Shown here: one piece after another, positions 1,489 to 46,638 of the stretch
Layout: the number at the start of each line of letters is the position of its first letter
Position numbering within the stretch: the stretch's first letter is position 1
Assembly: GCA_017541205.1 (NCBI GenBank)
Contig: JAFXZO010000042.1
Location: forward strand, 1 to 49,979
Direction of reading: 5' to 3'
DNA from: Clostridia bacterium
GTDB taxonomy: Bacteria > Bacillota > Clostridia > Christensenellales > Aristaeellaceae
Length of the DNA stretch: 49,979 nt
The notes under the pieces: model-generated
Databases searched by the model: none
Told to the model about the DNA's origin: nothing
What the model saw: only the letters and a program-made list of their open reading frames with translations
Made by a program: the position numbers and the translations under genes

Positions 1489-3012
1489 TCATTCGCCCAG
1501 GAATGTTTTCAGCTGCGCGTTCGCTTCGTCCACGATCTTCTGCATGCCGGCGGCTTCCAGCTTGGCCAGCAGCTCGGGCAGGGCGGTTTCGGGATCGACC
1601 GCGCCGGTGCACAGGCTGAGCGCATACGCTTCCTTCACGTTCACGACCGCGGCGATTTCAATTTCCACGGGCTTGCTGTCGAAGGTGAAGCCGTAGATGG
1701 GCAGCTTCTTGGAGCCGGCGTAGAATTCGGCAAAGCGCTGCTGGAAGTCCGCGCCCTGGCCCTTCTGCGGCGGCAGGATGGTCACGTTGCCCACGCCGTT
1801 GGTCCAGGGAGAATAGGTGGCGCGCGCTTCGGGGATGAATTCCACTTCGCCGGCGTCGTTCAGCGTGTAATGGATGCCTTCAACGCCGTAGTTGAGCAGG
1901 GTCATCACATAGGGATCGGTGTTGAGCAGGTTCAGGAACTTCATGGCCTCTTCGGGATGCTCGCTCTTGGAGGAAATGGCCATCATGGCGCCCTGGACGG
2001 AGGTGTTGTCGATATAGGGAGCGTCGGTGGTCATCAGGTAAGCCACCTGGATGCCGCGGGCTTCGGAGGTGGTGTATTCATAGCCATAGAGGGAAACCTC
2101 GGAGGAGATCAGGTACCGGGCCGTATTCTGGGCGTTGCGCCAGGTATCGGTGGCCGTTTCGCCGATGGCGATGGCGGGATCGATGTAGCCGGCCAGGTAA
2201 TATTCGCGCATCTGCTTGACAAACTTTTCAAATTCGGGGGTGGCATACTTGTTGAAGAACACGTTGCCATACGCGCCGGGGGTGGACACGTCTTCGGTGT
2301 TCATGTAATAGCTCAGCAGGCTGTTGCTGTCGCCGGTCACGATGGGCGTGCCGGTCACGAAGCGTTCCACGACCGCGCCTTCAAACACGAAGGGATAGAA
2401 CACTTCGCCGTCCTTCTCTTCGCCTTCCTTGACCGTCTTGAAGATATCGCCCCAGCCATAGAAGCCGGCGTTCTTCACGTCTTCCAGGGTGTAGCCGTAT
2501 TTCTCCAGCAGGGTCACGTTCACGTCCCAGGTGTTCATGGTGGCGAAATCCTTGAAGCCGGGCACGGCGTAGATACCCTTTTCGCCGTCGATGCCCTCGG
2601 TCTTGGCGCCTTCAAAGAGCAGCTCGGGCAGGGTGGCCGTCAGGTCCGCGCCGTATTTTTCCAGCAGGTTGTCTTCGGGATCGTCCAGGCGCACATACGC
2701 GTCCTTTTTGGCGTATTTCGCATATTCGTTGCTGGTCCAGGAGCAGGTGAACAGGATGTCATATTCGTTCCTGCTGCTGTTCACATAATCCAGGGCGAGC
2801 TGATCGAAGTTGCCCCAAGTGCCCCAGGTGGGCTTCAGGGTGACGCCGATCTTTTCGGCCAGGTAAGCGTTCAGCTTTTCCAGCACGGCGGCGTCATCGG
2901 TCACGTTGTTGCCTTCCAGCAGCATGGTGATTTCCACAGGGCCTTCCGCGAAGACGGGAACCACGGCCAGCAGCATCATGGCAGCCAGCAGCAAAGCGAG
3001 CATCTTTTTCAT
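1489..3012 (-). CDS. Extracellular sugar-binding protein of an ABC importer (LipO/DUF3502-like)
   Basis: The protein is 507 residues from ATG 3012, with GGAGG eight bases upstream. Residues 1-22 form a signal peptide ending VFA/EG. There is no lipobox cysteine, so anchoring is unexplained. The body is a family-1-type solute-binding fold. The last ~70 residues (from PIYGFTFDS) resemble the DUF3502 tail of LipO-like proteins that partner LplB/LplC permeases. It is the last gene of a minus-strand operon behind the two permeases and is followed by a strong terminator. The adjacent divergent GH94 phosphorylase suggests the ligand is a beta-linked disaccharide or short oligosaccharide. Ligand identity is inference; the role as a binding protein is well supported. 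Confidence 0.9.
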   Translation of the reverse strand: MKKMLALLLAAMMLLAVVPVFAEGPVEITMLLEGNNVTDDAAVLEKLNAYLAEKIGVTLKPTWGTWGNFDQLALDYVNSSRNEYDILFTCSWTSNEYAKYAKKDAYVRLDDPEDNLLEKYGADLTATLPELLFEGAKTEGIDGEKGIYAVPGFKDFATMNTWDVNVTLLEKYGYTLEDVKNAGFYGWGDIFKTVKEGEEKDGEVFYPFVFEGAVVERFVTGTPIVTGDSNSLLSYYMNTEDVSTPGAYGNVFFNKYATPEFEKFVKQMREYYLAGYIDPAIAIGETATDTWRNAQNTARYLISSEVSLYGYEYTTSEARGIQVAYLMTTDAPYIDNTSVQGAMMAISSKSEHPEEAMKFLNLLNTDPYVMTLLNYGVEGIHYTLNDAGEVEFIPEARATYSPWTNGVGNVTILPPQKGQGADFQQRFAEFYAGSKKLPIYGFTFDSKPVEIEIAAVVNVKEAYALSLCTGAVDPETALPELLAKLEAAGMQKIVDEANAQLKTFLGE

Positions 3013-21114: not shown

Positions 21115-22932
21115 CTATTTCCTCGGCGCGTAGGTAAAGGTAATCTCCATGGTCATTATTCGGCTCATCTGCGGCAAACTCCTGTCCAGCACCGTGGCGG
21201 AAATGCCGGTGAGATCGCCGTACAGCACGCGGGCGTTGGAATTGTTGATGCCCTTCATGTTCACCCATTCGTTGAAAAGGTTCGTGCGGGTGCACCTGCC
21301 GTCGTCGGAGCAGGTGTAGTTCCGGCCCTTCAGCTTGATGGGCTCGCCGTTGATCTTGCATTCGGTAATCATGATGCAGTAGCCGGGGAACAGCGTTTCG
21401 CCGTTGGAAATGCCGACGGCGCTGAAGGCGGTGTTTTCGGCGTATCCCTTTTCGGTGCCGCTGAAATCGAGGGCCACGGTATACGTGCCCTGGCCCGTGA
21501 TCTCCACGTCCGTCGGCACGATGCCGGGGCTGATGGAATCGGGGTTATAGGCGTCGCCGACGCTGTAGCTCAGGGCCCAGGAGCCTTCGCTGAACATGAT
21601 CCAGGCGACGCAGGCGTTTTCATCCGCGGTCAGCGCGTCCTTTCGCAGCACCTTCGGCGCGGAAGCGACGGCCGCATCGACGCCTTCCTTTCCCGCCCGG
21701 GCAATATCGGCGTAATCCCGGCCCGCTTCGGAGGCGGCGTTCCTGCCCGCGTATACGGCGGCCATCTCCTCCTCCACGATCCTGTTTTCACGCCGGATAA
21801 AAAACCCGCTGCAATCCCACAGGCAGGAGGTGAAATCCAGCGCGTCGCAGCAATCCAGGAACGCCCTGTGATACGCCGGGGCGTTCTTTTTCATGACGCC
21901 GTCGCCGCCGGTCAGCGCGCCGTATTCGCCGATCACCACGCCGTAGCCCCGGCTGACGAACTTCGTCATTTTGCTCAGCGTCCTGTACATTTCATCGTAG
22001 TCCGCCGCTTTGCCCCACAAGGTCGCGCCGGCCGCGCTGGACGCGCCGCAATAGCTCCAGGGGCCGTAGTAATGTACGGAGACCATCAGCTTGTTTTGCG
22101 CGGTGTCCTTGGGCATCTGGAAGCGGCTGTCAAAGGTCTGGTCGATGTTGGTGCCGTAGCCCGCGATGAGCAGAAAGCGCTTTTCGTTGTTGCCGCCCGT
22201 TTCGCGCACGGTGTCCACAAACGCCTGGTTCACCTGATTCGTCAGGGCATAGCGCTGCTGCTCCGTCAGATAGGAAAGCACGGAATCCCGGGCATAGCAG
22301 GGGCTGTTTTCGTCGAATCTGGCCCCCAATTCCTCGTTGGCGCTTTCAAAGATCACATAGTCCGAATAATCCCGGAAATATTCCGCGATCTGCTTCCACA
22401 TCCCCTTGTACGCTTCCATGGCGAAGGAAGCGGTGTCCGGGTTTTCGGAGCCGAACATGCCCCACCAGCCGCCGTCCCAATGGTCGTTGATGATGACGTA
22501 CATCTCCGCGTTCCGGGCGTAATCCACGATTTGGCGAACGCGCGAAAGATACGCTTCGTTCAGGGTGCAATCCTTCATTTCAAAGGGCATATTGCTCGCG
22601 TTGGTCATCCAGGCGACGGGGATGCGGATGGTGTCAAACCCCGCCGCCTTCATGCCCAGCAGCATTTCCTGCGTGGTGACGGGCTGGCCCCAGCCGGTTT
22701 CGTAAACCAAGGGGTCGTCGGAATAATTGCCCCGCGTGCTGTCGCAGGCCTCCATGGTGTTGCCAAGGTTGATGCCGTTGCCCATGAGGCGCGTCGCCTC
22801 CACCGCGGTCAGCTCCTCCCGGATCGATCCGTCGTCCTTTCGCATGGCCTCTCCTTCGCCCATCGCCGCCGGCAGCGCGCACAGCAGCAGCGCCGCCAGA
22901 AGCAGGCTTGTGATCCTTTTGATCCTGCTCAT
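21115..22932 (-). CDS. Secreted GH5-family endoglucanase with C-terminal repeat-type module
   Basis: The protein is 605 residues from ATG 22932 (AGGGAG upstream); a longer frame to 22962 lacks a site. Residues 1-25 are a signal peptide. About 40-400 form a GH5 (beta/alpha)8 barrel: GNGINLGNTMEA, GFDTIRIPVAW, NDHWDGGWWG, acid/base E200 (ESANEE) and nucleophile E336 (VVIGEYGAL). Residues about 440-605 are a separate beta-rich module with ITGQGTYTVALDF, FSAVGISNGETLFPGY, YTCSDDGRCTRTNLFNEWVN and a closing MTMEITFTY. This module matches, motif by motif, the triplicated unit of the protein at 27608-29692. The enzyme would cut beta-glucan outside the cell; the module may bind polysaccharide or cell wall. 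Confidence 0.92.
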   Translation of the reverse strand: MSRIKRITSLLLAALLLCALPAAMGEGEAMRKDDGSIREELTAVEATRLMGNGINLGNTMEACDSTRGNYSDDPLVYETGWGQPVTTQEMLLGMKAAGFDTIRIPVAWMTNASNMPFEMKDCTLNEAYLSRVRQIVDYARNAEMYVIINDHWDGGWWGMFGSENPDTASFAMEAYKGMWKQIAEYFRDYSDYVIFESANEELGARFDENSPCYARDSVLSYLTEQQRYALTNQVNQAFVDTVRETGGNNEKRFLLIAGYGTNIDQTFDSRFQMPKDTAQNKLMVSVHYYGPWSYCGASSAAGATLWGKAADYDEMYRTLSKMTKFVSRGYGVVIGEYGALTGGDGVMKKNAPAYHRAFLDCCDALDFTSCLWDCSGFFIRRENRIVEEEMAAVYAGRNAASEAGRDYADIARAGKEGVDAAVASAPKVLRKDALTADENACVAWIMFSEGSWALSYSVGDAYNPDSISPGIVPTDVEITGQGTYTVALDFSGTEKGYAENTAFSAVGISNGETLFPGYCIMITECKINGEPIKLKGRNYTCSDDGRCTRTNLFNEWVNMKGINNSNARVLYGDLTGISATVLDRSLPQMSRIMTMEITFTYAPRK

Positions 22933-23027
22933 GGAATACTCCCTTTCTATTGCGCGGCGCAAAAGCGCCTATCGAAAAATTTCGCCCCTCCCCGCGGAAG
23001 GGAAGAGGCAAAGGAAACGCGTTTGGA

Positions 23028-24791
23028 TCATTGCGCCAGGGCCGCCTGGGCCTGCTGGGCCGCCCAGCACAGGGCCGCCTGCTCTTCGCACCAGGCCACG
23101 CAGTCCGCGTACCCGTAAGCGTTGCAGTCCTTGATCATCTGGTTCAGGTGGAAATTGAATTCGCCGTCGTTCTTGGCGTAGATGGCGCGCCAGCTGTAGG
23201 TCTTCACCGCGGTCTGGATCTGGCTCCACTTGGTATCCAGCACCTGATCGCGCTTGGCGGGGGCATAGGTGCCCGTGTCCAGCATGACCTTATAGGGGTG
23301 GTTCTCCAGATACTGCTGGGTGGAGGCCGCGCCGGCCCATTCGCACCAGGCCTGCTGGATGGGCTTTAAGTCCGCGGCGAGCACGCTCACCCAGCCCACC
23401 TTGTCCAGCGTTTCCTGCTTTTTGCTGTCGGGGTTCTGCTGGCTGGAGGTCAGGGTGGTGTTGTTGATTTGCAGCGCGCCGTCGTTGTAGGTGCCGCTCT
23501 GGGGATATTCCCTGCCGGTGCGGGGGCCTACCAGCACGGTGCCGGTCATATCGTAGGAGGGGTCCTGGCTGGTCTTCTGGCCAAGCTCGGTAAAGTACGT
23601 GCCGCCCTCTTCATCGTAATCCCAGGTCAGGCCCTTGGGGCCGTACCACATGGTCAGGCTGCCTTCGGGGGTGGCCAGGTAATCGATGATGGCAAGGCAC
23701 AGTTCGGGATATTCCGCGTCCGCGCCGACCGTCCAGACCCGGTTGCCGCCGGTGAGGGACAGGCCGTAGGAAATGGGCGTGGCTTCCGTGGGCACCATGG
23801 TATACATGTATTTGCCCTGGTCCAGGTGTTCGGCGGTATTAAAGATGGCGGAGCCGGAATAGTTGAAGATGCTCCAGAAGGTGCCGCCGGCCTTCACCTT
23901 TTCGCCCATGGTGGAATAGGTCTGGGAAGCGGAATTGGGATCGAGCAGGCCTTCGCGGTACAGCTTGTTAAAGAAGCGCAGGCACTGGATGTAGAGGCCG
24001 TCTTCCTGCAGGCAGCCCTGGAATTCGCCGGTTTCGGTGCTGATGAGGCCCAGCTCAAATTCGTCCCAGCCAAAGTAGGCGGTCGCCAGGGCCTTGACGT
24101 ACATGACCATGTTGCCGTCCCAGTCGGGCCAGATGGAGGTGGCGTAGGTTTCGTTGCCGTTTTCGTCGGTGGGGCAGAGCTCCTTCATCTGCTTGAACAG
24201 ATCGATCATGCCGTCCAGGTCCTTGACCTCGGGGCAGCCCAATTGCTGGTACAGATCCCAGCGGATATCCCAGGTATAGAAAAAGTTTTCATGGCTGCCC
24301 GCCTTCAGGGCCACGTTATGGCCGAAGCCGTGGATCTTGGCGTCAGGGCTCTTGGCGCGGTTCGCTTCCAGGGCCATCTGGTAATTCTGCCACACATAGG
24401 GGGCGTACTCCTCGCACAGGCCGTCCTCCTCCCAGTCCAGCAGCAAGCCCTGGCTCACAGCGTCCTGATACTTATCGCCGTCCGCGCCCCAGACCACGAT
24501 ATCGCCCAGATTCCCGCTTTCCATGCGGGTGGCGTAGGTGCCGTCAGACTCGGGGATGATGTTGATTTTCACGTTGAACATGTCCAGCAGCAGATCGGCG
24601 CTCCAATGGGCCTGGATGCCGCTGTAGTTCGCCAGCTGGGTATACACGTTGATGGTGATGGGCTCGCCGTCGTACACGCCGATTTCTTCCAGCTTGGCGT
24701 AGATGTCCTTGTCCTCCGCGGCGGCGCTGAACGTGCCGAAGACGGACAGGATCAGCAGCAGGGCCAGCAGGGCCGACAGGGTCTTTTTCAT
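23028..24791 (-). CDS. Extracellular oligosaccharide-binding protein of an ABC importer
   Basis: The protein is 587 residues from ATG 24791 (MKKTLSALL), with AGGAGG eight bases upstream; an in-frame start at 24890 would add an unsuitable leader. The signal peptide is about residues 1-25 (FSAAA/ED) and has no lipobox cysteine. The rest is a large family-1-type binding protein with many tryptophans and tyrosines (for example WPDWDGNMVMYVKALATAYFGW) of the kind used to grip longer oligosaccharides. It follows its two permeases after a 229-bp gap that carries palindromic repeats and precedes the GH5 gene, so it probably captures the products of that enzyme. Confidence 0.9.
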   Translation of the reverse strand: MKKTLSALLALLLILSVFGTFSAAAEDKDIYAKLEEIGVYDGEPITINVYTQLANYSGIQAHWSADLLLDMFNVKINIIPESDGTYATRMESGNLGDIVVWGADGDKYQDAVSQGLLLDWEEDGLCEEYAPYVWQNYQMALEANRAKSPDAKIHGFGHNVALKAGSHENFFYTWDIRWDLYQQLGCPEVKDLDGMIDLFKQMKELCPTDENGNETYATSIWPDWDGNMVMYVKALATAYFGWDEFELGLISTETGEFQGCLQEDGLYIQCLRFFNKLYREGLLDPNSASQTYSTMGEKVKAGGTFWSIFNYSGSAIFNTAEHLDQGKYMYTMVPTEATPISYGLSLTGGNRVWTVGADAEYPELCLAIIDYLATPEGSLTMWYGPKGLTWDYDEEGGTYFTELGQKTSQDPSYDMTGTVLVGPRTGREYPQSGTYNDGALQINNTTLTSSQQNPDSKKQETLDKVGWVSVLAADLKPIQQAWCEWAGAASTQQYLENHPYKVMLDTGTYAPAKRDQVLDTKWSQIQTAVKTYSWRAIYAKNDGEFNFHLNQMIKDCNAYGYADCVAWCEEQAALCWAAQQAQAALAQ

Positions 24792-24880
24792 GGGGATTCC
24801 TCCTTCATATTGTTGCGCCTTCCAGGCGGGTTTTACATGATAAAAAGAATCATGAAGAAAACACGAACAAGCTTTCCTTT

Positions 24881-24991
24881 CGCGCAGCACATATCGAACG
24901 CGCAGCGTATATCGAGCGCCGAAGGCGCATATTCTTGCCGATATATCCTTCGGATCCGATAGGACTTCGCCTCGAGATGCGCTTCGCGCGA
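24881..24991. repeat. Palindromic repeat cluster between permease and binding-protein genes
   Basis: The 229-bp gap 24792-25020 holds no gene. It has two tandem 18-bp units (24881-24898 and 24899-24916, 15 of 18 bases equal, CGCGCAGCRYATATCGAR). Mini-hairpins with three-base loops follow: GCGCC-gaa-GGCGC (24916-24928), ATCC-ttc-GGAT (24946-24956) and GCGC-ttc-GCGC (24979-24989), joined by ATAT-rich spacers. Similar hairpin-plus-ATAT arrays occur between genes in other Ruminococcaceae-like genomes. Here they lie inside an operon, so they would be in the mRNA. Confidence 0.6.
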
Positions 24992-25020
24992 GAGAAAGAA
25001 TGTTTTACAAAACTGCTTTC

Positions 25021-25977
25021 TCATCCCTTGACCGCGCCCAGCATGATGCCCTTGACGAAGTACCGCTGCATGAAGGGGTAGACCAGCAGGATCGGGATGA
25101 TGCTGACCATGGATACGGTGTACTGGATCACGCGCTGGTTCAGCATGCTCTGGGCGGCCTGTTCGCTGATGGTGCCGCCCTGGCTCATCATGGCGCCCAG
25201 GTTGCTGGAAGAATTGAGGTAAACATACAGCCGGTGCTGCAGGGTATAGAGGTCGGGCCGGTTGTTCATCAGCAGCAGCGAATCCTGGAAGGAGTTCCAG
25301 TTGCCCACCGCGCCGAAAATGGTGATGGTGGCGAGGATGGGGATGCTCAGCGGCAGGATGATCTTGAGCCACACCTTCAGCGTGGACGCCCCGTCGATCA
25401 CGGCGCTTTCCTCCAGCGAGGAGGGAATGGATTCGATGTAGGTTTTCACCAGGATGATGTTGTAGGGGGCCACCATGCCGGGGATGATGTAGGCCAGGAA
25501 ATTATCCGTCAGGCCCATCATCAGCATGTTCATGTACCAGGGCACCAGGCCCGCGTTAAAATACATCGTCACCACCAGGAACCGATACCAGAGGGAGCGC
25601 TTCCACATCTTCTGCTTGGTGACCAGATAGCCGGCCCAGGCGGAGGTGATCACCATCAGCGCCGTGCCCAGCACGCTTCGCGCCACCGTGACCAGCACGC
25701 TCGAGCCCAGGTCCTGCACGTTCTGCAGCGCCAGATAGTTGTTGAACTGCGCGCCCAGCACGCCCTTGCCGGCGGCGTCCTTGAGCATCGGATAGAAATT
25801 CACCCGCCCGCTGGTGACCAGATCGTTATCTGAAATGGTGTTGATCAGCAGATAATAGAAAGGGAAAATGCACACGAAGGTGAACAGGAAGAAAAAGATG
25901 ATCACCGCGATATCGAAAACCCAGTCGCCCGCGCTACGCTTGATATGCAGGTTGGCGGCCTTTTCTTTCTTAGCCAC
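25021..25977 (-). CDS. Sugar ABC transporter permease, LplC-like
   Basis: The protein is 318 residues. The start is GTG 25977, with GGAGGGG seven bases upstream, 16 bp after the stop of the LplB-like partner. Six membrane spans are seen; the EAA loop reads LEESAVIDGASTLKVWLKIILP, and the ending FVKGIMLGAVKG is typical of LplC proteins. It forms the channel with the 25994-27481 product for the binding protein at 23028. No ATPase gene is present in the run. Confidence 0.93.
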   Translation of the reverse strand: MAKKEKAANLHIKRSAGDWVFDIAVIIFFFLFTFVCIFPFYYLLINTISDNDLVTSGRVNFYPMLKDAAGKGVLGAQFNNYLALQNVQDLGSSVLVTVARSVLGTALMVITSAWAGYLVTKQKMWKRSLWYRFLVVTMYFNAGLVPWYMNMLMMGLTDNFLAYIIPGMVAPYNIILVKTYIESIPSSLEESAVIDGASTLKVWLKIILPLSIPILATITIFGAVGNWNSFQDSLLLMNNRPDLYTLQHRLYVYLNSSSNLGAMMSQGGTISEQAAQSMLNQRVIQYTVSMVSIIPILLVYPFMQRYFVKGIMLGAVKG

Positions 25978-25993
25978 GCCTTTCCCCTCCTTC

Positions 25994-27481
25994 TTATATG
26001 ATGCTCTCGCCGCGGATGGCCTTGGAAATGCCGTTCGCCGCGAAAAGCAGGGTGATGCCGATGAGGGACTTGGAGATGCCCACCACGGTGCTCAGGGAAA
26101 TGCGGTTCTGCCCGATGCCGATGTTGTATACATACAAATCGAGCACCTCGATCACGTCTTTGTTCATGGCGTTGGAAAACACCAGATACTGCTCCATGCC
26201 GTTGGAGAGGATGCCCGCGATGCTCATGAGCAGCATGACCATGTAGGTTGGCACCAGGCCCGGAATGGTAATATGCCAGATGCAGCGGAAGCGGCCGGCC
26301 CCGTCCACGCGGGCCGCCTCATACAATTGCTGATCGATGCCGGCGATCCCGGCGATATAGATGATGGCGCTCCAGCCAACGCCCTTCCACGTGCCCCACA
26401 AGAGCATTTTGAGCCACGTATGATCGGCGATCTGCAAATAGTTGGTGTTCGCGCCGGCGACGTGCATCACGTTCGTCAAAAAGCTGTTGATAAAGCCGTC
26501 CGTGGAGAAGATGCAGATGGCGATGGCGTACACCAGCACCCAGGAAATGAAGTTGGGGATGGTGGTAAAGGTCTGCACGAAGCGCTGGAATTTGGTGGAG
26601 CGCACCTCGGCCAGCAGCACGGCGAACGCGATGGGCAGCCAGGAGGTCAGGATGCCAAGGCCGCTCATAATCAGCGTGTTGCGCAGCACGCGGATCAGGT
26701 CCTTCGTGGTGGCGGGATCGGCAAAGAGGAAGCTGAACCACTTGAAGCCCACGTAGTTGTCCGCGCCGATATCGCCGCCCGGGGTATAGTCAAAGAACGC
26801 GAAGCGCCAGCCCCAGATCGGCAGATAGGCGAAAATGAAGGTGAGCAGGATCACCGGCAGCATCATCAGGAACAGCCGGTATTTTTCTTCCATCTCCATC
26901 TTGGCGGAGGGATCGGTATCCTTTTCCGCGGTGAAAAAAGCGATGGCGGCGGACAGGAAAAGGAGCGCCGCGAGCACGATGAACACCGTGAACCCGCCGG
27001 GCAGCATCATGCCGATCTTGTCCAGCTTTCCCATTTCCTCTCCGTTGGAAACCATGCGCTGATACGCCTGCCGGATCAGGAAGAGGCCGACGCCCATGAT
27101 CGGCGCGCCGAGCAGGGGAAGGATCAGCCCGCGCCTGCGCATTTTGCGGTTGCCCAGGCTCATGCAGCCGCCCGCCGCGCACATGATCACGCCCAGCATG
27201 ACCGTGACGCACGCGATCATCAGCAGCGTGATATCCCCCCCGCGGATCCACTGGGAGCGCAGGATGCGGCCCATGCTGTTGGTGATGGTGCCGTAGCTGA
27301 CGCCGGTGGTGAACAGGCTGGCGGATTCGTTGATTTTTTCGCTGATCCGGCCCGGATTGACGGGCGGGAAAAAGATCGCCATGCCGGCGATCAGCGCGGT
27401 TGCCCGGAAAATCCACAGCGGCACGCGCCGGCCAAGCGGCAGCGTTTCCGTCGGGATCTTCCTGTTCACGGTCCTATCCAC
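25994..27481 (-). CDS. Sugar ABC permease, LplB-like, with an extra N-terminal membrane domain
   Basis: The protein is 495 residues. The start is GTG 27481, with AAGGAG nine bases upstream; the frame continues to a TTG at 27499, but that codon overlaps the ribosome site. Residues about 205-495 are a normal LplB permease (YRLFLMMLPVILLTFIFAYLPIWG, EAA loop LYEAARVDGAGRFRCIWHITI). The first ~200 residues are additional and carry four predicted spans (about 24-40, 82-108, 117-138, 155-186) with polar loops, roughly doubling the membrane part. Ordinary LplB proteins are about 300 residues. No known domain was recognised in the extension. It could tether or regulate the importer. Confidence 0.9.
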   Translation of the reverse strand: MDRTVNRKIPTETLPLGRRVPLWIFRATALIAGMAIFFPPVNPGRISEKINESASLFTTGVSYGTITNSMGRILRSQWIRGGDITLLMIACVTVMLGVIMCAAGGCMSLGNRKMRRRGLILPLLGAPIMGVGLFLIRQAYQRMVSNGEEMGKLDKIGMMLPGGFTVFIVLAALLFLSAAIAFFTAEKDTDPSAKMEMEEKYRLFLMMLPVILLTFIFAYLPIWGWRFAFFDYTPGGDIGADNYVGFKWFSFLFADPATTKDLIRVLRNTLIMSGLGILTSWLPIAFAVLLAEVRSTKFQRFVQTFTTIPNFISWVLVYAIAICIFSTDGFINSFLTNVMHVAGANTNYLQIADHTWLKMLLWGTWKGVGWSAIIYIAGIAGIDQQLYEAARVDGAGRFRCIWHITIPGLVPTYMVMLLMSIAGILSNGMEQYLVFSNAMNKDVIEVLDLYVYNIGIGQNRISLSTVVGISKSLIGITLLFAANGISKAIRGESII

Positions 27482-27513
27482 AGTGCCACACTCCTTCAAT
27501 TCATGGATGCCGA

Positions 27514-27588
27514 GGGTGCGCAGAGAGCAGCCGCACCTTCCGGCTGTTCTCTGCGCACCCCCCAGGGGGGCGTCAGAAGCCGCCCCCC
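27514..27588 (-). other. Two strong tandem hairpins in the intercistronic gap
   Basis: Stem 1 pairs 27514-27533 with 27541-27560 (13 bp, one mismatch, 6 bp; 7-nt loop). Stem 2 pairs GGGGGGCG 27565-27572 with 27581-27588. Neither has a T-run on the minus strand, so they are not simple terminators. They lie between the repeat-protein gene and the permease genes and may protect or process the mRNA so that the secreted protein is made in excess. Confidence 0.65.
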
Positions 27589-27607
27589 GGAGGAATGCCG
27601 TTTGATC

Positions 27608-29692
27608 TTACCAGCCGCTCACGGTGAACGTAATGCTCACGGTTTCGTTGGGGCCGGGCACGGTATAGACGATCGACGGAGCCGAAGCCTGGTTGTACAC
27701 GTCAATGATCTTGATGAGGACGTAGGTGCCGCTCAAATCAACCTCGGTGTATTCCTGGGTCGCGCCGCTGCCGAACTTCACCTTCACATTGTCGATGGTC
27801 AGGAAGCCGTCCCGGATCAGGGCGCTGGGAATATCGGTGGAGACGAAGAGCATGTTGTAATCCTTGGTTTCGCCCATGCCCATGTCGCCGGTGGTCAGGG
27901 AGACGGAGTATTCGCCGTCGCCGGTGATCTGGGCGTCCGCGAAGGAGCCGCCGTAATCGACCGCGTTGTTATCGGCGTCCCAGCCGGTCAGGCGGCCGAA
28001 GAATTCGGGATGCTCCGCGCTGTCGCGGCCATAGTTGGCTTCGTCCCAGGCGTTGCGGAACACGTAGGTATCCTTGCCCTGCACGCCGATGTAGGCGTTG
28101 AAGCCGGCGGCCTTGAGGGCGTCCGCTTCTTCCTGGGTCAAGGGGGCGTCGTCGTCCTTGGCGATGGGCTTGCCGTAGATGAAGTTGAAGGTCACTTCCA
28201 CGGTCTTGACGGAGGCAAAGGCTTCCTTATCCACGATGATGGCGGAAACGCCTTCCAGGTCGCCGTCCGCGCGGCGCGCGTCCGCGGGGATCTCGCCCAC
28301 CCATTCGTTGTAGATGTTTTCGCGGGTTTCGATGCCGTTGTCGGAGGAGGTGTAGCCCTTGCCGACCTCGATGGCTTCGCCGTTGACCTTGATTTCGGTG
28401 ATGTCGATGAAGTAGCCGTTGAAGGATTGTTCGCCCTTCACGATGCCCAGCGCGGTGAAGGCCAGGCCCTGGGCTTCCTCGTTGAATTCCAGGCCGACGG
28501 TATAGGTGCCGGGGCCGGTGATTTCGGCGGTGGCGGCGGTCACGGGGTATTCGTTGCCGTCCATCCAGAAGCAGTTGGCCCAGGAGGCGTCCGCGTACAT
28601 GATGTAGGCGATATCCGTCACGGGCAGCAGGGAGAAGTCGATTTCAAAGGACTTGACGGAGGCGAACGCTTCCTTGTCCACGATAATGGGCGAAGCGTCG
28701 GCCACCTCGCCGTCAAAGGAGCGGGCGTCAGCGGGCACCTCGCCCACCCATTCGTTGTAGATGTTCATGCGGGTTTCCACACCGTTGTCGGAGGAGGTGT
28801 AGCCCTTTTCAAAAACGATTTCTTCGCCGTTGACGCGCAGGGCGTTGATCTTGATGTAAGCGCCGGGATAGGTCTTTTCGCCGTTCACGATGCCAAGGGC
28901 GGTGAAGGCCAGGCCCTGGGCTTCCTCGTTGAATTCCAGGCCCACGGTGTAATCGCCGAAGCCGTCGATCACGGCGGTGGCGGCGGTCACGGGGTATTCG
29001 TTGCCGTCCATCCAGAAGCAGTTGGCCCAGGAGGCGTCCGCGAACATGATGTAGGCGGTATCCAGGGGATACTGATGGAGGTTAAAATCGACTTCCACGG
29101 TCTTGACGGAGGCGAACAGCTCCTTGTCCACGATCACGGGCTTGACGCCGTCGAGGCTGCCGTCGAAGGAACGGGCGTCGGCGGGCGCTTCGTTCACCCA
29201 TTCGTTGTAGATGTTCATGCGGGTTTCCACGCCGTCGTCGGAGGAGGTGTAGCCCTTTTCAAAGGCGATCTCTTCCCCGTTCACACGGATGGCCTTGAGC
29301 TCGATGGTATAGCCGGGCAGCAGGGCTTCGCCGTTCTTGATGCCAAGGGCGGTAAAGGCCAGGCCCTGGGCTTCCTCGTTGAATTCCAGGCCGATGGTGT
29401 ACGCGCCGGGGCCGGTGATTTCGGCGGTGGCGGCGGTCACGGGATATTCGTTGCCGTCCAGCCAGAAGCAGTTGGCCCAGGAGGCGTCCGCGTACATCAG
29501 ATACGCGATCGCAGCGTCCTCCGCCGCGGGCGCGGCTTCTTCTTCCGCGGGAGCAGCGGTTTCTTCAGCGGTCCCTCCAAAAGAGATTTCCGTGATACCG
29601 GGGATGATCTTCACTTCCGCCACGGCGGGCGCGAAGCTCATGACGCTCATCAGAAGCGCCAGGCACAGAATGGCAGCCAATGTCTTTTTCAT
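27608..29692 (-). CDS. Secreted protein with three tandem ~150-residue modules and a diverged fourth
   Basis: The protein is 694 residues from ATG 29692 (MKKTLAAILCL), with AGGAGG upstream. Residues 1-25 are a signal peptide (FAPAVA/EV) and 39-60 an Ala/Glu/Pro linker. Modules 1 (63-212), 2 (213-361) and 3 (362 to about 505) are nearly the same. Each starts AYxMxADASWANCFWxDGNE and runs through YPVTAATA, YTxGLEFNEEAQGLAFTALG, GYTSSD-G-ETR-NIYNEWV, PADAR and VDKExFASVK. A fourth, distant copy (about 525-694) keeps ITGDGEYSVSL and a closing beta strand. No catalytic residues are evident. The same module ends the GH5 enzyme of this run. It is the first structural gene after the LacI-type regulator. 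A polysaccharide-binding surface protein is the best guess; the family was not recognised. Confidence 0.88.
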   Translation of the reverse strand: MKKTLAAILCLALLMSVMSFAPAVAEVKIIPGITEISFGGTAEETAAPAEEEAAPAAEDAAIAYLMYADASWANCFWLDGNEYPVTAATAEITGPGAYTIGLEFNEEAQGLAFTALGIKNGEALLPGYTIELKAIRVNGEEIAFEKGYTSSDDGVETRMNIYNEWVNEAPADARSFDGSLDGVKPVIVDKELFASVKTVEVDFNLHQYPLDTAYIMFADASWANCFWMDGNEYPVTAATAVIDGFGDYTVGLEFNEEAQGLAFTALGIVNGEKTYPGAYIKINALRVNGEEIVFEKGYTSSDNGVETRMNIYNEWVGEVPADARSFDGEVADASPIIVDKEAFASVKSFEIDFSLLPVTDIAYIMYADASWANCFWMDGNEYPVTAATAEITGPGTYTVGLEFNEEAQGLAFTALGIVKGEQSFNGYFIDITEIKVNGEAIEVGKGYTSSDNGIETRENIYNEWVGEIPADARRADGDLEGVSAIIVDKEAFASVKTVEVTFNFIYGKPIAKDDDAPLTQEEADALKAAGFNAYIGVQGKDTYVFRNAWDEANYGRDSAEHPEFFGRLTGWDADNNAVDYGGSFADAQITGDGEYSVSLTTGDMGMGETKDYNMLFVSTDIPSALIRDGFLTIDNVKVKFGSGATQEYTEVDLSGTYVLIKIIDVYNQASAPSIVYTVPGPNETVSITFTVSGW
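28180..29506 (-). repeat. Triplicated ~450-bp coding repeat
   Basis: Units run 29506-29057 (450 bp), 29056-28610 (447 bp) and 28609 to about 28180. They are highly alike at DNA level as well as in protein, with long identical stretches, which points to recent duplication and to a risk of copy-number change by recombination. They are in frame within one gene and are not a CRISPR. Confidence 0.9.
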
Positions 29693-29762: not shown

Positions 29763-30764
29763 TCACTTTGGCGGGCCGAGGGTCTCGCCCGGCAGCATTT
29801 CGCCCGTCACCATCACCTGCCGGGGCTTGTGCGTTTCCGGGTTTTCGATGGCGTCCAGCAGCAGGGCCAGCGTTTCGCGCGCCGCGCCGGAGGCGTCCTG
29901 GCGCAGGGTGGTCAGCTTCGGATGCAGCATCTGGCCCATGCGGATGCCGTCGTAGCCGATCACGCTCACATCCTCGGGCACGCGCAGGCCCAGCTTTTCC
30001 AGCGCGCTCAGCGCGCCAAGGCAGCTGAAATCATCCGGGCAGAGGATGCAGGTGGGCGCTTCGTCCGCCTGCATGAGCGCGGTCACGATTTGGGCGCAGC
30101 TTTGGGGATCGTGGAAATGCCCGGGCCGGACGAACGCCGCGGGCGCCCGCACCCCGAGCTCCGCGCACGCCTTGTAAAACCCGCTCAGGCGTTCGCGCGT
30201 CACGGTGCCGTCCTCGCCGTGGATGCAGGCGATTTTTTCGTGCCCCATGGCCTTCGCTTCCCGCACGATGGTCTCCATGCCCGCCCGGTTATCGCACATC
30301 ACGCAGTCGCAGCCTTCGTACGCATGGTCGATCACCACGGTGGGGATGCTCCCCGCGGCCAGGCGCATCACGCCCGCGGAGTTAAAATCCGCCTGCACAA
30401 CAACCACGCCGTCCAGGTTGCGCCGCCGGGCCCTGTCGCTGTAATCGCCCGCGTCCTGATCGTGCATGGAGCGGCGGATGAAGGTGATGTCATAGCCCTT
30501 TTGTTCCGCGGCGGAGCGCAGGCCGTTGAGCAAAAAGCTGAAATATTCGTGATCCATCCTGTCTTCGTACAGGATGCCGATATTGTTGGATTTGCTGGTT
30601 TTCAGCGTCCGGGCGGCGGCGTTGGGGAAATAGCCCATTTCCTTGGCCTTCTGGCGGATGCAGGCGGAATTCTTGCCGCTGGGATCCGTCAGGCCGTTCA
30701 ACGCCCGGGAGACCGTGGCCGCGGATACGCCGCACGCCTGCGCGATGTCCTTGAGCGTGACCAT
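29763..30764 (-). CDS. LacI-family transcriptional regulator
   Basis: The protein is 333 residues from ATG 30764, with GGGGG upstream. Residues 1-50 are the LacI HTH and hinge helix (TLKDIAQACGVSAATVSRALNG, then NAAARTLKTSKSNNIGIL). The rest is a periplasmic-binding-like sugar sensor (IACIHGEDGTVTRERLSGF, PTCILCPDDFSCLGAL, VSVIGYDG). It heads the ten-gene minus-strand run. An operator-like site covers its own predicted start point (30806-30820), so it probably represses itself and the downstream transport and enzyme genes until an oligosaccharide binds. The inducer is not known. Confidence 0.94.
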   Translation of the reverse strand: MVTLKDIAQACGVSAATVSRALNGLTDPSGKNSACIRQKAKEMGYFPNAAARTLKTSKSNNIGILYEDRMDHEYFSFLLNGLRSAAEQKGYDITFIRRSMHDQDAGDYSDRARRRNLDGVVVVQADFNSAGVMRLAAGSIPTVVIDHAYEGCDCVMCDNRAGMETIVREAKAMGHEKIACIHGEDGTVTRERLSGFYKACAELGVRAPAAFVRPGHFHDPQSCAQIVTALMQADEAPTCILCPDDFSCLGALSALEKLGLRVPEDVSVIGYDGIRMGQMLHPKLTTLRQDASGAARETLALLLDAIENPETHKPRQVMVTGEMLPGETLGPPK

Positions 30765-30825: not shown

Positions 30826-30854
30826 ATTATACAATCCTATTTCTTCCTTGTCAA
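30826..30854 (-). promoter_or_regulatory. Consensus promoter of the LacI/polysaccharide run
   Basis: On the minus strand, TTGACA (30854-30849), exactly 17 bases, TATAAT (30831-30826): a perfect consensus. Such a strong promoter needs a repressor, in line with operator O1 next to it. Confidence 0.9.
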
Positions 30855-44797: not shown

Positions 44798-45940
44798 TCA
44801 AATGAAGCTCGCCATCTGCTCCATGCCGCGCTCCATGCTTTGCTGGTCAGCATGGCAGTATGTCCGGTAAGTGAATGCTGTGTCGGCATGACCGAGAATG
44901 CGCGAGAGGGAAGCAATATCGGGGTTATTTTGTACCCAGTTCGTGGCGAATGTGTGCCGGGTGGTGTGGATGCCGCGGCGGGGTATGCCTGCCTTATCGC
45001 ACAGGTCGCGAAAAGCCCGGGCGATATTGTGCCTGTCTGCCGGCTTCCCCAAGGAGTTTGCGAAGATGTAGCAGTTTGCTTTGCCGGGATCCTCTCCTGC
45101 CCAGGCTGAACCGGCTTTCAATCGCTGTTCCATCTGGGCGCGGCGCTGATCTTCCAAGATGGCTTTGACCGAATTGGGCAGAGGGATCACTCTTTTCCCT
45201 GCTGCGGTCTTTGGAAGCGTTTCAACGTTGATATATCCATCTGCCTGCCAATCTTTGATGGTCATATTGATCCGGGCAACGTGCAGCCCGTCCGCTTGCA
45301 CATCCTTCCATTTGAGGCCGCACAATTCCGAGACCCGCATTCCGGTTCCCAGCAAAAAACGAATGGCGCGTCCGTGGGTGGTGGCCGGTATGTGCTGGAG
45401 GACTTTTTGTTGTTCCTCGGCGGTCAGGTACTTGATTTCAGGCTTTTCCATTGACGGCAAGATGACAGCGTTGACGGGGTTGCTGTGAATCTTCTTCACT
45501 TTCACTGCCTGGGACAGCGCTTGTTTCAGGGTTTTGATATGCCGATGGATAGTGGAGGGGGCCAGTCCTCTTTTCTGCATGACGCGGACAACGCTTTGCG
45601 CATGGTCGGTGGTCAGCTTTTGAAGGGGAATCTTCCCGATTGTCGGCTTCAAGTAAGCATTGATGCCTTGGCGAGTGGTGGCCTGCGAAGACTGCTTGGA
45701 GCCGACGCAATAGTAGTTTTGAAACCAGAAATCTAACCAGTCGCCTGTTAAAATTTTATCAATCCGAACGTAAACGCCGCCCTGGATTGCGGCCTTGATT
45801 GCGTCCAGCTTCTTTTTGCATTCCTCCTGTGAGGCCCCATACACAGCTCTTTGTTTGTGATCGACGGGATCAATGTACCTGCCGCGCCAACCTTCTTTGT
45901 ACCGGGTGATACTGCCGTCACCGTTTGGACGTTTGCTCAT
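44798..45940 (-). CDS. Tyrosine recombinase/phage-type integrase
   Basis: The protein is 380 residues from ATG 45940, with GGAGGGG upstream and 3 bp after the repressor gene. The N-terminal AP2-like arm-binding domain is about 1-55 (GDGSITRYKEGWRGRYID), the core SAM-like domain about 65-150, and the catalytic domain about 170-370 with R202 (GTGMRVSELCGLKW), H325-R328 (HTTRHTF), H351 (ILGHADTAFTY) and nucleophile Y361. It would catalyse insertion of the element into, and excision from, the tRNA-Ala site. It is co-transcribed with the repressor from the 46642-46670 promoter. Confidence 0.95.
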   Translation of the reverse strand: MSKRPNGDGSITRYKEGWRGRYIDPVDHKQRAVYGASQEECKKKLDAIKAAIQGGVYVRIDKILTGDWLDFWFQNYYCVGSKQSSQATTRQGINAYLKPTIGKIPLQKLTTDHAQSVVRVMQKRGLAPSTIHRHIKTLKQALSQAVKVKKIHSNPVNAVILPSMEKPEIKYLTAEEQQKVLQHIPATTHGRAIRFLLGTGMRVSELCGLKWKDVQADGLHVARINMTIKDWQADGYINVETLPKTAAGKRVIPLPNSVKAILEDQRRAQMEQRLKAGSAWAGEDPGKANCYIFANSLGKPADRHNIARAFRDLCDKAGIPRRGIHTTRHTFATNWVQNNPDIASLSRILGHADTAFTYRTYCHADQQSMERGMEQMASFI

Positions 45941-45943
45941 TTG

Positions 45944-46573
45944 TCACCCCTCCTTTTTCTCCTGTTCGTCAATCAGCCGTCCTTCTGAACGTAGCTTTTC
46001 TATGGCTTCGGCGGTTCGCCGTTCTGCTGGAGGATATGCCTGTAATGGTGCTTTGTTGCCCGTCCTGATTGCCTCCAGCGTATGCAGCAATCGAATGCCT
46101 AAAGATGCTGCAAAACTGTCCGGCGACATTTCCACCGTATAGAAACCATCGACGGGGGAGCAAGTTGCTTCATAGTATCCGCGTTCGTCGGATTGAACCA
46201 ACAGCAGCGAGGACAGCACGTTCAGAAACGACGTGGAGGAAAGAGCTTTGCTCAATGCGGCGGTTTTCAGCCCTGTTGGATCGTCACCATGGAATGCCTG
46301 CAGGGCTTCGACGGCCGCGTCTGATAAGCCTGTTGCCGCGTGGATTTCGGTATTATTTGGCTGTATTCCTTTGGTTATCCAGTCCGTTGTTGTCCTGAAT
46401 ATTTCAGCCATCCGGATTATGTCCTGCGCCTTTGCTTCGCGTTCACCACCTTCGATCTTTGCTATTTTTTCCCTGCTTACGCCTATGCTGTCTGCCAATT
46501 CCTGCTGGCTTATTTCTGCTCGCTCCCTTAGTTCTTTGATCCTGCCCCCGATAGATTTGTCACACGTAGCCAT
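45944..46573 (-). CDS. XRE-family phage-type repressor
   Basis: The protein is 209 residues from ATG 46573 (MATCDKSIGGRIKELRERA), with GAAGGGGGG upstream; the longer frame starts inside the operator region. Residues about 8-62 form a Cro/C1-type HTH (SQQELADSIGVSREKIAKIEGG). The remaining ~140 residues are a helical domain of unknown type; no RecA-cleavage serine/lysine pair is obvious, so induction may use another signal. It lies opposite the HTH/primase genes and is flanked by the paired operators at 46596-46670, which it probably binds. Confidence 0.9.
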   Translation of the reverse strand: MATCDKSIGGRIKELRERAEISQQELADSIGVSREKIAKIEGGEREAKAQDIIRMAEIFRTTTDWITKGIQPNNTEIHAATGLSDAAVEALQAFHGDDPTGLKTAALSKALSSTSFLNVLSSLLLVQSDERGYYEATCSPVDGFYTVEMSPDSFAASLGIRLLHTLEAIRTGNKAPLQAYPPAERRTAEAIEKLRSEGRLIDEQEKKEG

Positions 46574-46595
46574 GAAATGCCCCCCTTCGACCATT

Positions 46596-46625
46596 TGTGT
46601 ACCAGAATATTGACTTTGGTACACA
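46596..46625. promoter_or_regulatory. Repressor operator OA
   Basis: A 9-bp perfect inverted repeat TGTGTACCA (46596-46604) / TGGTACACA (46617-46625). It covers the -35 box of the plus-strand promoter. Confidence 0.75.
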
Positions 46626-46638
46626 AAATGCATATAAT
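46610..46638 (+). promoter_or_regulatory. Early plus-strand promoter of the element
   Basis: TTGACT (46610-46615), 17 bases, TATAAT (46633-46638). It drives the HTH, primase-like and ATPase genes, and its -35 lies inside operator OA. Confidence 0.8.

Follow-up and report, generated by a model that had tools for sequence, protein, structure and literature searches.

Here we describe a protein module shared by two secreted proteins that are encoded in a 49,979-nucleotide contig of a Clostridia bacterium of the family Aristaeellaceae (JAFXZO010000042.1, assembly GCA_017541205.1; the whole of this stretch is called the window below). The C-terminal ~160 residues of one protein, an enzyme of glycoside hydrolase family 5 (GH5), are homologous to three ~145-residue units (R1-R3) of the other, which we call the triple protein, and both genes accompany those of an ATP-binding cassette (ABC) importer. 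We consider it reasonably probable that the triple protein, which has no enzyme domain, captures glycans for the importer and the GH5 endoglucanase, and that the module resembles a carbohydrate-binding module (CBM). The features concerned, several of them located with a hidden Markov model (HMM), are these:

27608-29692, minus strand: triple protein, 694 residues, with a Sec-type signal peptide, an acidic linker, R1-R3 and a diverged R4; no anchor seen
29078-29509, minus strand: unit R1 (HMM match)
28628-29059, minus strand: unit R2 (HMM match)
28181-28612, minus strand: unit R3 (HMM match; AlphaFold2 model)
about 27611-28102, minus strand: R4, diverged fourth unit (profile comparison, HMM, AlphaFold2 model)
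21115-22962, minus strand: secreted GH5 enzyme, first ATG at 22932
21808-22704, minus strand: GH5 catalytic domain (Pfam PF00150)
21130-21609, minus strand: module of the GH5 enzyme, homologous to R1-R3 (HMM match)

Homology, fold and age of the module

Units R1-R3 are 73-76% identical among themselves and 36-41% identical to the GH5 module, and the alignment score of each unit with that module was equalled by 0 of 100 shuffles. The ordered motifs that a preliminary description of this DNA had reported for both proteins were confirmed with small departures: R2 has IDGFGDYTVGLEF, and PGA for PGY, R3 has NGY, R2 and R3 have SDNG, and the GH5 module has YTCSDDG. That description was equally right that the triple protein lacks an enzyme domain (Pfam finds none), that both proteins are secreted (each has a Sec-type N-terminus, as judged by eye), and that both genes lie in one run with the importer. 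Its weak fourth unit also held up: R4 is, on profile evidence, a diverged relative of R1-R3. Although the pairwise signal was weak, with the GH5-R4 score equalled or beaten by 2 of 100 shuffles and the R3-R4 score by 0 of 100, hhalign gave R4 96.5% to the units and 95.0% to the GH5 modules, and 45 of 74 multi-unit open reading frames (ORFs) had, beyond their final unit, a match to an HMM untrained on R4 (independent E<0.01). The AlphaFold2 model of R4 (27611-28138) had a predicted local distance difference test score (pLDDT) of 96.7 and a similar strand order.

Across 118 units and GH5 modules, residues R98, N100, N103 and W105 are nearly invariant, and W12 is likewise nearly fixed in the module. 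For 163 of the 177 units in 59 three-unit proteins, the nearest relative occupies the same position in the protein of another species. Since the positions of the units are conserved across species, the triplication is old and has been kept, which rules out a recent event and fits selection for multivalency. Of the three units, R3 is by a small margin the nearest to the GH5 modules (42%, against 39-40% for R1 and R2).

AlphaFold2 predicted R3 (28178-28615) to be a nearly all-beta sandwich with a pLDDT of 97.5, the kind of fold that the preliminary description had proposed to look for. Comparison of the module with Pfam, NCBIfam and PDB sequences yielded no family name, and no CBM model matched the triple protein, the GH5 enzyme or any of 26 units scanned singly (Pfam, E≤1). 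CBM32-type sandwiches and the C-terminal beta-domain of dextranase/cycloisomaltooligosaccharide glucanotransferase, presumably GH66, were listed among the closest known folds; the match was not strong. Several sub-threshold matches in Pfam, NCBIfam and PHROGs found no support and were rejected as homology, namely TAXi_C, DUF1806, Shr-like_HID, TraN models at 0.0014, and a PHROG of unknown function at 3.9e-5 for which each stretch on its own fell short; PDB sequence-profile matches to YojF (E 0.038) and filamin were at chance level. A mobile-element origin was also rejected: by tblastn at E≤1e-5, R3 matched none of 72,556 plasmid records and none of 50,697 phage records. Among the papers listed in literature searches, no title or abstract opening described the module, subscription journals being mostly uncovered.

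These results leave the earlier proposal of an undescribed module standing as far as Pfam, NCBIfam and PDB sequences are concerned, and agree with it in that no solved fold matched strongly. As in CBMs, the domain is discrete, non-catalytic and joined to a carbohydrate-active enzyme, lying at the C-terminus of the window's GH5 enzyme and of a GH5 enzyme in 29 of 58 fetched loci that had room for one, and it is predicted to be an independently folding beta-sandwich. We regard it as a putative CBM-like beta-sandwich family without a Pfam model, one not named in the three libraries.

Gene order, distribution and co-occurrence

The genes form a single co-directional run on the minus strand, in the order LacI regulator, triple protein, permease, permease, solute-binding protein (SBP) and GH5 enzyme. 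Its remaining features are these:

29763-30764, minus strand: LacI-family regulator, opening gene of the run (PF00356 and PF13377)
25994-27499, minus strand: importer permease 1 (BPD_transp_1 at residues 291-494 of 501, preceded by a long N-terminal stretch)
25021-25977, minus strand: importer permease 2 (BPD_transp_1)
23028-24791, minus strand: large extracellular SBP without a lipobox (so named because of its place in the run, its size and a secretion signal; Pfam matches nothing in it at E≤1)
27500-27607, minus strand: gap between the triple and permease genes, with two strong hairpins (-67.1 kcal/mol, z -5.7, 0 of 200 shuffles)
30826-30854, minus strand: 12-of-12 sigma-70 consensus upstream of the LacI gene (consensus match alone)

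The hairpins at 27500-27607 could perhaps act as a stabiliser or attenuator and raise expression of the triple gene. Another hairpin, resembling a terminator with a T tail, lies between the SBP and GH5 genes (22981-23012). Elsewhere in the window, integrase-like and XRE-like ORFs recognised by eye at 44798-46633, where the GC content falls to about 0.53-0.56, are possibly a mobile element.

The neighbourhood was compared across relatives in GTDB contigs, where 262 of 280 pattern stretches encode one; the best 80 stretches gave 77 loci, and both sets are Clostridia metagenome-assembled genomes by title. Many titles of the 77 loci name rumen or other herbivore gut sites, and a few carry AS/UBA isolate names, which we take to belong largely to anaerobic-digester sets. 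A triple-type protein is present in 76 of the 77, the exception (L147) being a short contig with a GH5 module; such proteins are over-represented because the loci were picked by similarity to R3. Among 65 unfragmented triple-type proteins, 53 have three recognised units, 11 have two and one has a single unit. Where there is room for it, the first permease gene begins within 800 bases after the triple gene (68 of 72 loci; not so in L138, L142, L144 and L146, a GH5 gene intervening in L142 and L144), and both permeases and the SBP follow the triple gene in all 64 fetched loci with room. A LacI gene lies directly upstream in 35 of 61.

Fifty-eight loci extend more than 6.5 kb downstream: 29 encode a GH5 enzyme with the module, 10 a GH5 enzyme without a detected module, and 19 had no GH5 found. 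The ten comprise one cut by a contig end (L089), one plain enzyme (L144) and eight long-tailed enzymes in the same slot (L096, L102, L107, L109, L110, L114, L118 and L137). In L107, the sole one scanned, Big_2 was found. The C-terminal domain of these eight scored 59% to the units, 50% to the GH5 modules and 20% to R4 in hhalign, and may be a divergent relative of the module.

The triple protein also co-occurs with the SBP. Of 150 genomes of the same family, 26 have the triple protein, 26 have an SBP scoring at least 760 bits, and 25 have both; the exceptions are G104, whose contig ends inside the triple gene, and G032, which has a close SBP. Five more family genomes have an SBP at 675-695 bits and no triple protein, and the stretches around the SBP in three of them contain no unit.

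With the whole protein as query, 30 of the 150 family genomes were positive. Relatives were found in 12 of 396 genomes of the order (four from another family), 4 of 391 of the class (two borderline) and 2 of 398 of the phylum, each of the four counts including the window's genome. That genome (84.9% complete) has the module in three places: the triple protein, the GH5 enzyme and a 413-residue secreted protein on contig C25 with one unit and an HExxH motif (L066, 4571-5812; the same gene in L003). The preliminary description had suggested looking for the module on other enzymes of this genome; among its five Cellulase-family places, four of them above the cut-off, only that of the window carries a unit. 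More distant proteins were seen as well. Two secreted proteins from G849, of the same class (L177, 6812-7624; L178, 7293-8123), have a domain like R4 or a unit, one of them ending in an NPETG-like tail and basic residues, and two others (L054, 5997-8962; L062, 8124-9917) are secreted and combine one or two distant units with a common second, undescribed C-terminal domain.

The GH5 enzyme itself offers hints of the ligand. It matches Pfam Cellulase (PF00150) over residues 87-385 with an E-value of 8.5e-46, the module lying C-terminal to this domain. The Glu residues of FESANEE and VIGEYGA align with 4x0v, and we take them to be catalytic and the enzyme to be subfamily 4-like. Among solved GH5 chains, its nearest are a beta-1,3-1,4-glucanase and a xyloglucanase; taken together with the further enzymes encoded nearby, among them GH31, GH94 and GH9, this points weakly to beta-glucan or xyloglucan as the ligand. 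The SBP could not be used for this purpose, as it matches no PDB chain by sequence (E≤1) or by profile (E≤0.1).

Surface retention and competing explanations

Some relatives of the triple protein carry anchor-like ends. A hydrophobic tail ends five of 73 multi-unit ORFs (LPXTG in L119, L121 and L133; others in L126 and L134), and all four sister-family relatives (L172-L175) have a membrane helix and basic residues at the C-terminus. A start and a signal were found for 66 multi-unit proteins; nine of these (L099, L104, L115, L120, L124, L138, L140, L141 and L143) have, as judged by eye, a membrane segment at the N-terminus and after it a long stalk resembling a coiled coil. A lipobox is clear by eye in the SBPs of L119, L121, L126, L133 and L134 and in the GH5 enzymes of L134, L147 and L176. 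A loose lipobox pattern matched 11 of 65 SBPs; among GH5-type ORFs it matched 2 of 45, and among triple-type ORFs or fragments 9 of 80, some of all these matches being doubtful. The clear lipobox of the L119 SBP escapes this pattern, by which 50 of the 65 SBPs have none; the window's SBP shows none by eye. Since relatives add LPXTG motifs, membrane tails or coiled-coil stalks, surface display of the family is likely. The window's genome has four Lgt-family matches and sortase homologues, and no Omp85 was detected in it at its completeness of 84.9%, so an outer membrane is not supported as the reason for missing anchors. A second solute-binding-type protein in the window (1489-3012) resembles the SBP in having a Sec-type N-terminus without a lipobox cysteine.

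We infer that the module binds carbohydrate, and a working order can be proposed on that basis. The module on the GH5 endoglucanase would direct the enzyme to its polysaccharide, while the three units and diverged fourth of the triple protein would provide multivalent capture of beta-glucan- or xyloglucan-type chains at the cell. The captured chains would be cleaved by the GH5 enzyme, and the resulting oligosaccharides handed over to the SBP and permeases for import. The triple protein thus probably helps to keep plant-fibre chains close to the importer. If this is correct, uncultured Clostridia of herbivore guts use, together with an ABC importer, a tandem-module protein dedicated to glycan capture; there would be a new CBM family, an explanation for a protein unnamed in the searched libraries, and a pointer to the polysaccharide being harvested.

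Several observations weigh against glycan capture. The predicted sandwich found no strong match among solved folds, and W12, R98, N100, N103 and W105 are candidate site residues, no more. Distant relatives of the unit occur on proteins not known to act on sugars, such as the HExxH protein. GH5 was not detected nearby in 19 of the 58 loci with room, the L144 enzyme has no module, and no unit occurs in the 18 kb examined around the close SBP of G032. The ligand is uncertain because the neighbouring enzymes vary: besides GH31 (5), GH94 (5) and GH9 (2), the 77 loci include GH2 (4), GH67 (4), GH43 (4) and a melibiase. Finally, no anchor was seen on the triple protein, GH5 enzyme or SBP of the window.

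A module common to two proteins with tightly linked genes could instead mean that the units bind protein, either their own kind, on the GH5 enzyme, or the SBP and permeases, gathering enzyme and importer on a scaffold. The triple protein is present in all 16 genomes with a GH5-module place, as such a scaffold would have it; however, 10 of the 26 triple-bearing genomes, some of them incomplete, lack such a place, the 19 loci without a nearby GH5 enzyme count against it, and Pfam finds no cohesin or dockerin domain in either protein (E≤1). We consider the scaffold unlikely. The suggestion of the preliminary description that the triple protein holds polysaccharide or enzyme is retained in its first part, which suits a protein of several units that has no enzyme domain and is encoded with an importer and an endoglucanase, and weakened in its second by those 19 loci.

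It is quite improbable, in our estimate, that the units are structural, an Ig-like fold without ligand that stiffens the enzyme or lets the protein reach further out from the cell. The lack of a clear structural relative, the Big_2 domains in the one other GH5 enzyme scanned and the stalk already present in some relatives would agree with a spacer, but the near fixation of R98, N100, N103 and W105 goes beyond what a spacer needs, and it is not evident what a secreted protein consisting only of spacers would do. Lastly, we give very little credence to the earlier idea of wall attachment, in which anchorless enzymes are kept at the surface because the units bind a wall polymer of the producer itself: although the window's three secreted proteins have no other visible anchor and the HExxH protein bears a unit, the module is unlikely to be a wall anchor because relatives bear units plus separate anchors (LPXTG, membrane tail, stalk or lipobox) that would be redundant, the genome has only three module places, and wall-binding repeats of the SLH/CWB2 type are unmatched by Pfam in the triple protein and GH5 enzyme (E≤1).

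Comparison with known systems

To our knowledge, a capture-protein role beside an importer is known mainly from SusE/F-type proteins of Bacteroidota. SusE and SusF are outer-membrane lipoproteins in a TonB-dependent (SusCD) locus. Like them, the triple protein is a non-enzymatic, secreted tandem-module protein whose gene neighbours those of an oligosaccharide importer and an endo-enzyme. It differs in that the importer is of the ABC type, Omp85 was not detected, the triple protein has no lipobox, sequence kinship was not found and binding is predicted, so that the resemblance we propose would be one of working only. A broader proposal is possible but tentative: the module would be a new CBM family and the triple protein a new kind of component of Clostridia glycan importers, a tandem-module protein co-inherited with the ABC importer as a SusE/F counterpart without an outer membrane. 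Its anchor to the cell would be lineage-specific: a coiled-coil stalk, an LPXTG signal or a C-terminal helix, while the window's protein has no visible one.

Surface glycan-binding proteins (SGBPs) are mentioned in the parts of two importer studies used here (PMC12710961 and PMC10318527). Sas20 of Ruminococcus bromii, as described in excerpts of its report, binds starch through two unlike domains joined by a flexible linker and is part of the amylosome (PMC9112005), and differs from the triple protein in each of these respects. As a gut-bacterial cell-surface glycan binder with two binding domains, little of which is predictable from sequence (PMC9112005), it resembles the triple protein in the role proposed here. 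According to the portions of the two importer studies used here, the mixed-linkage glucan (MLG) locus of Blautia producta (PMC10318527) and the xyloglucan importer locus of Anaerocellum bescii (PMC12710961) each combine an extracellular endo-glucanase with an ABC importer whose SBP takes beta-glucan oligosaccharides, the A. bescii importer lacking an adjacent ATPase gene; those portions make no mention of a separate tandem-module protein for either locus. The window's SBP differs from theirs in that no PDB chain is matched by its profile (E≤0.1). In its pairing of an extracellular endo-glucanase with an ABC importer the window's locus is like both, and in its ATPase-less neighbourhood it is like that of A. 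bescii.

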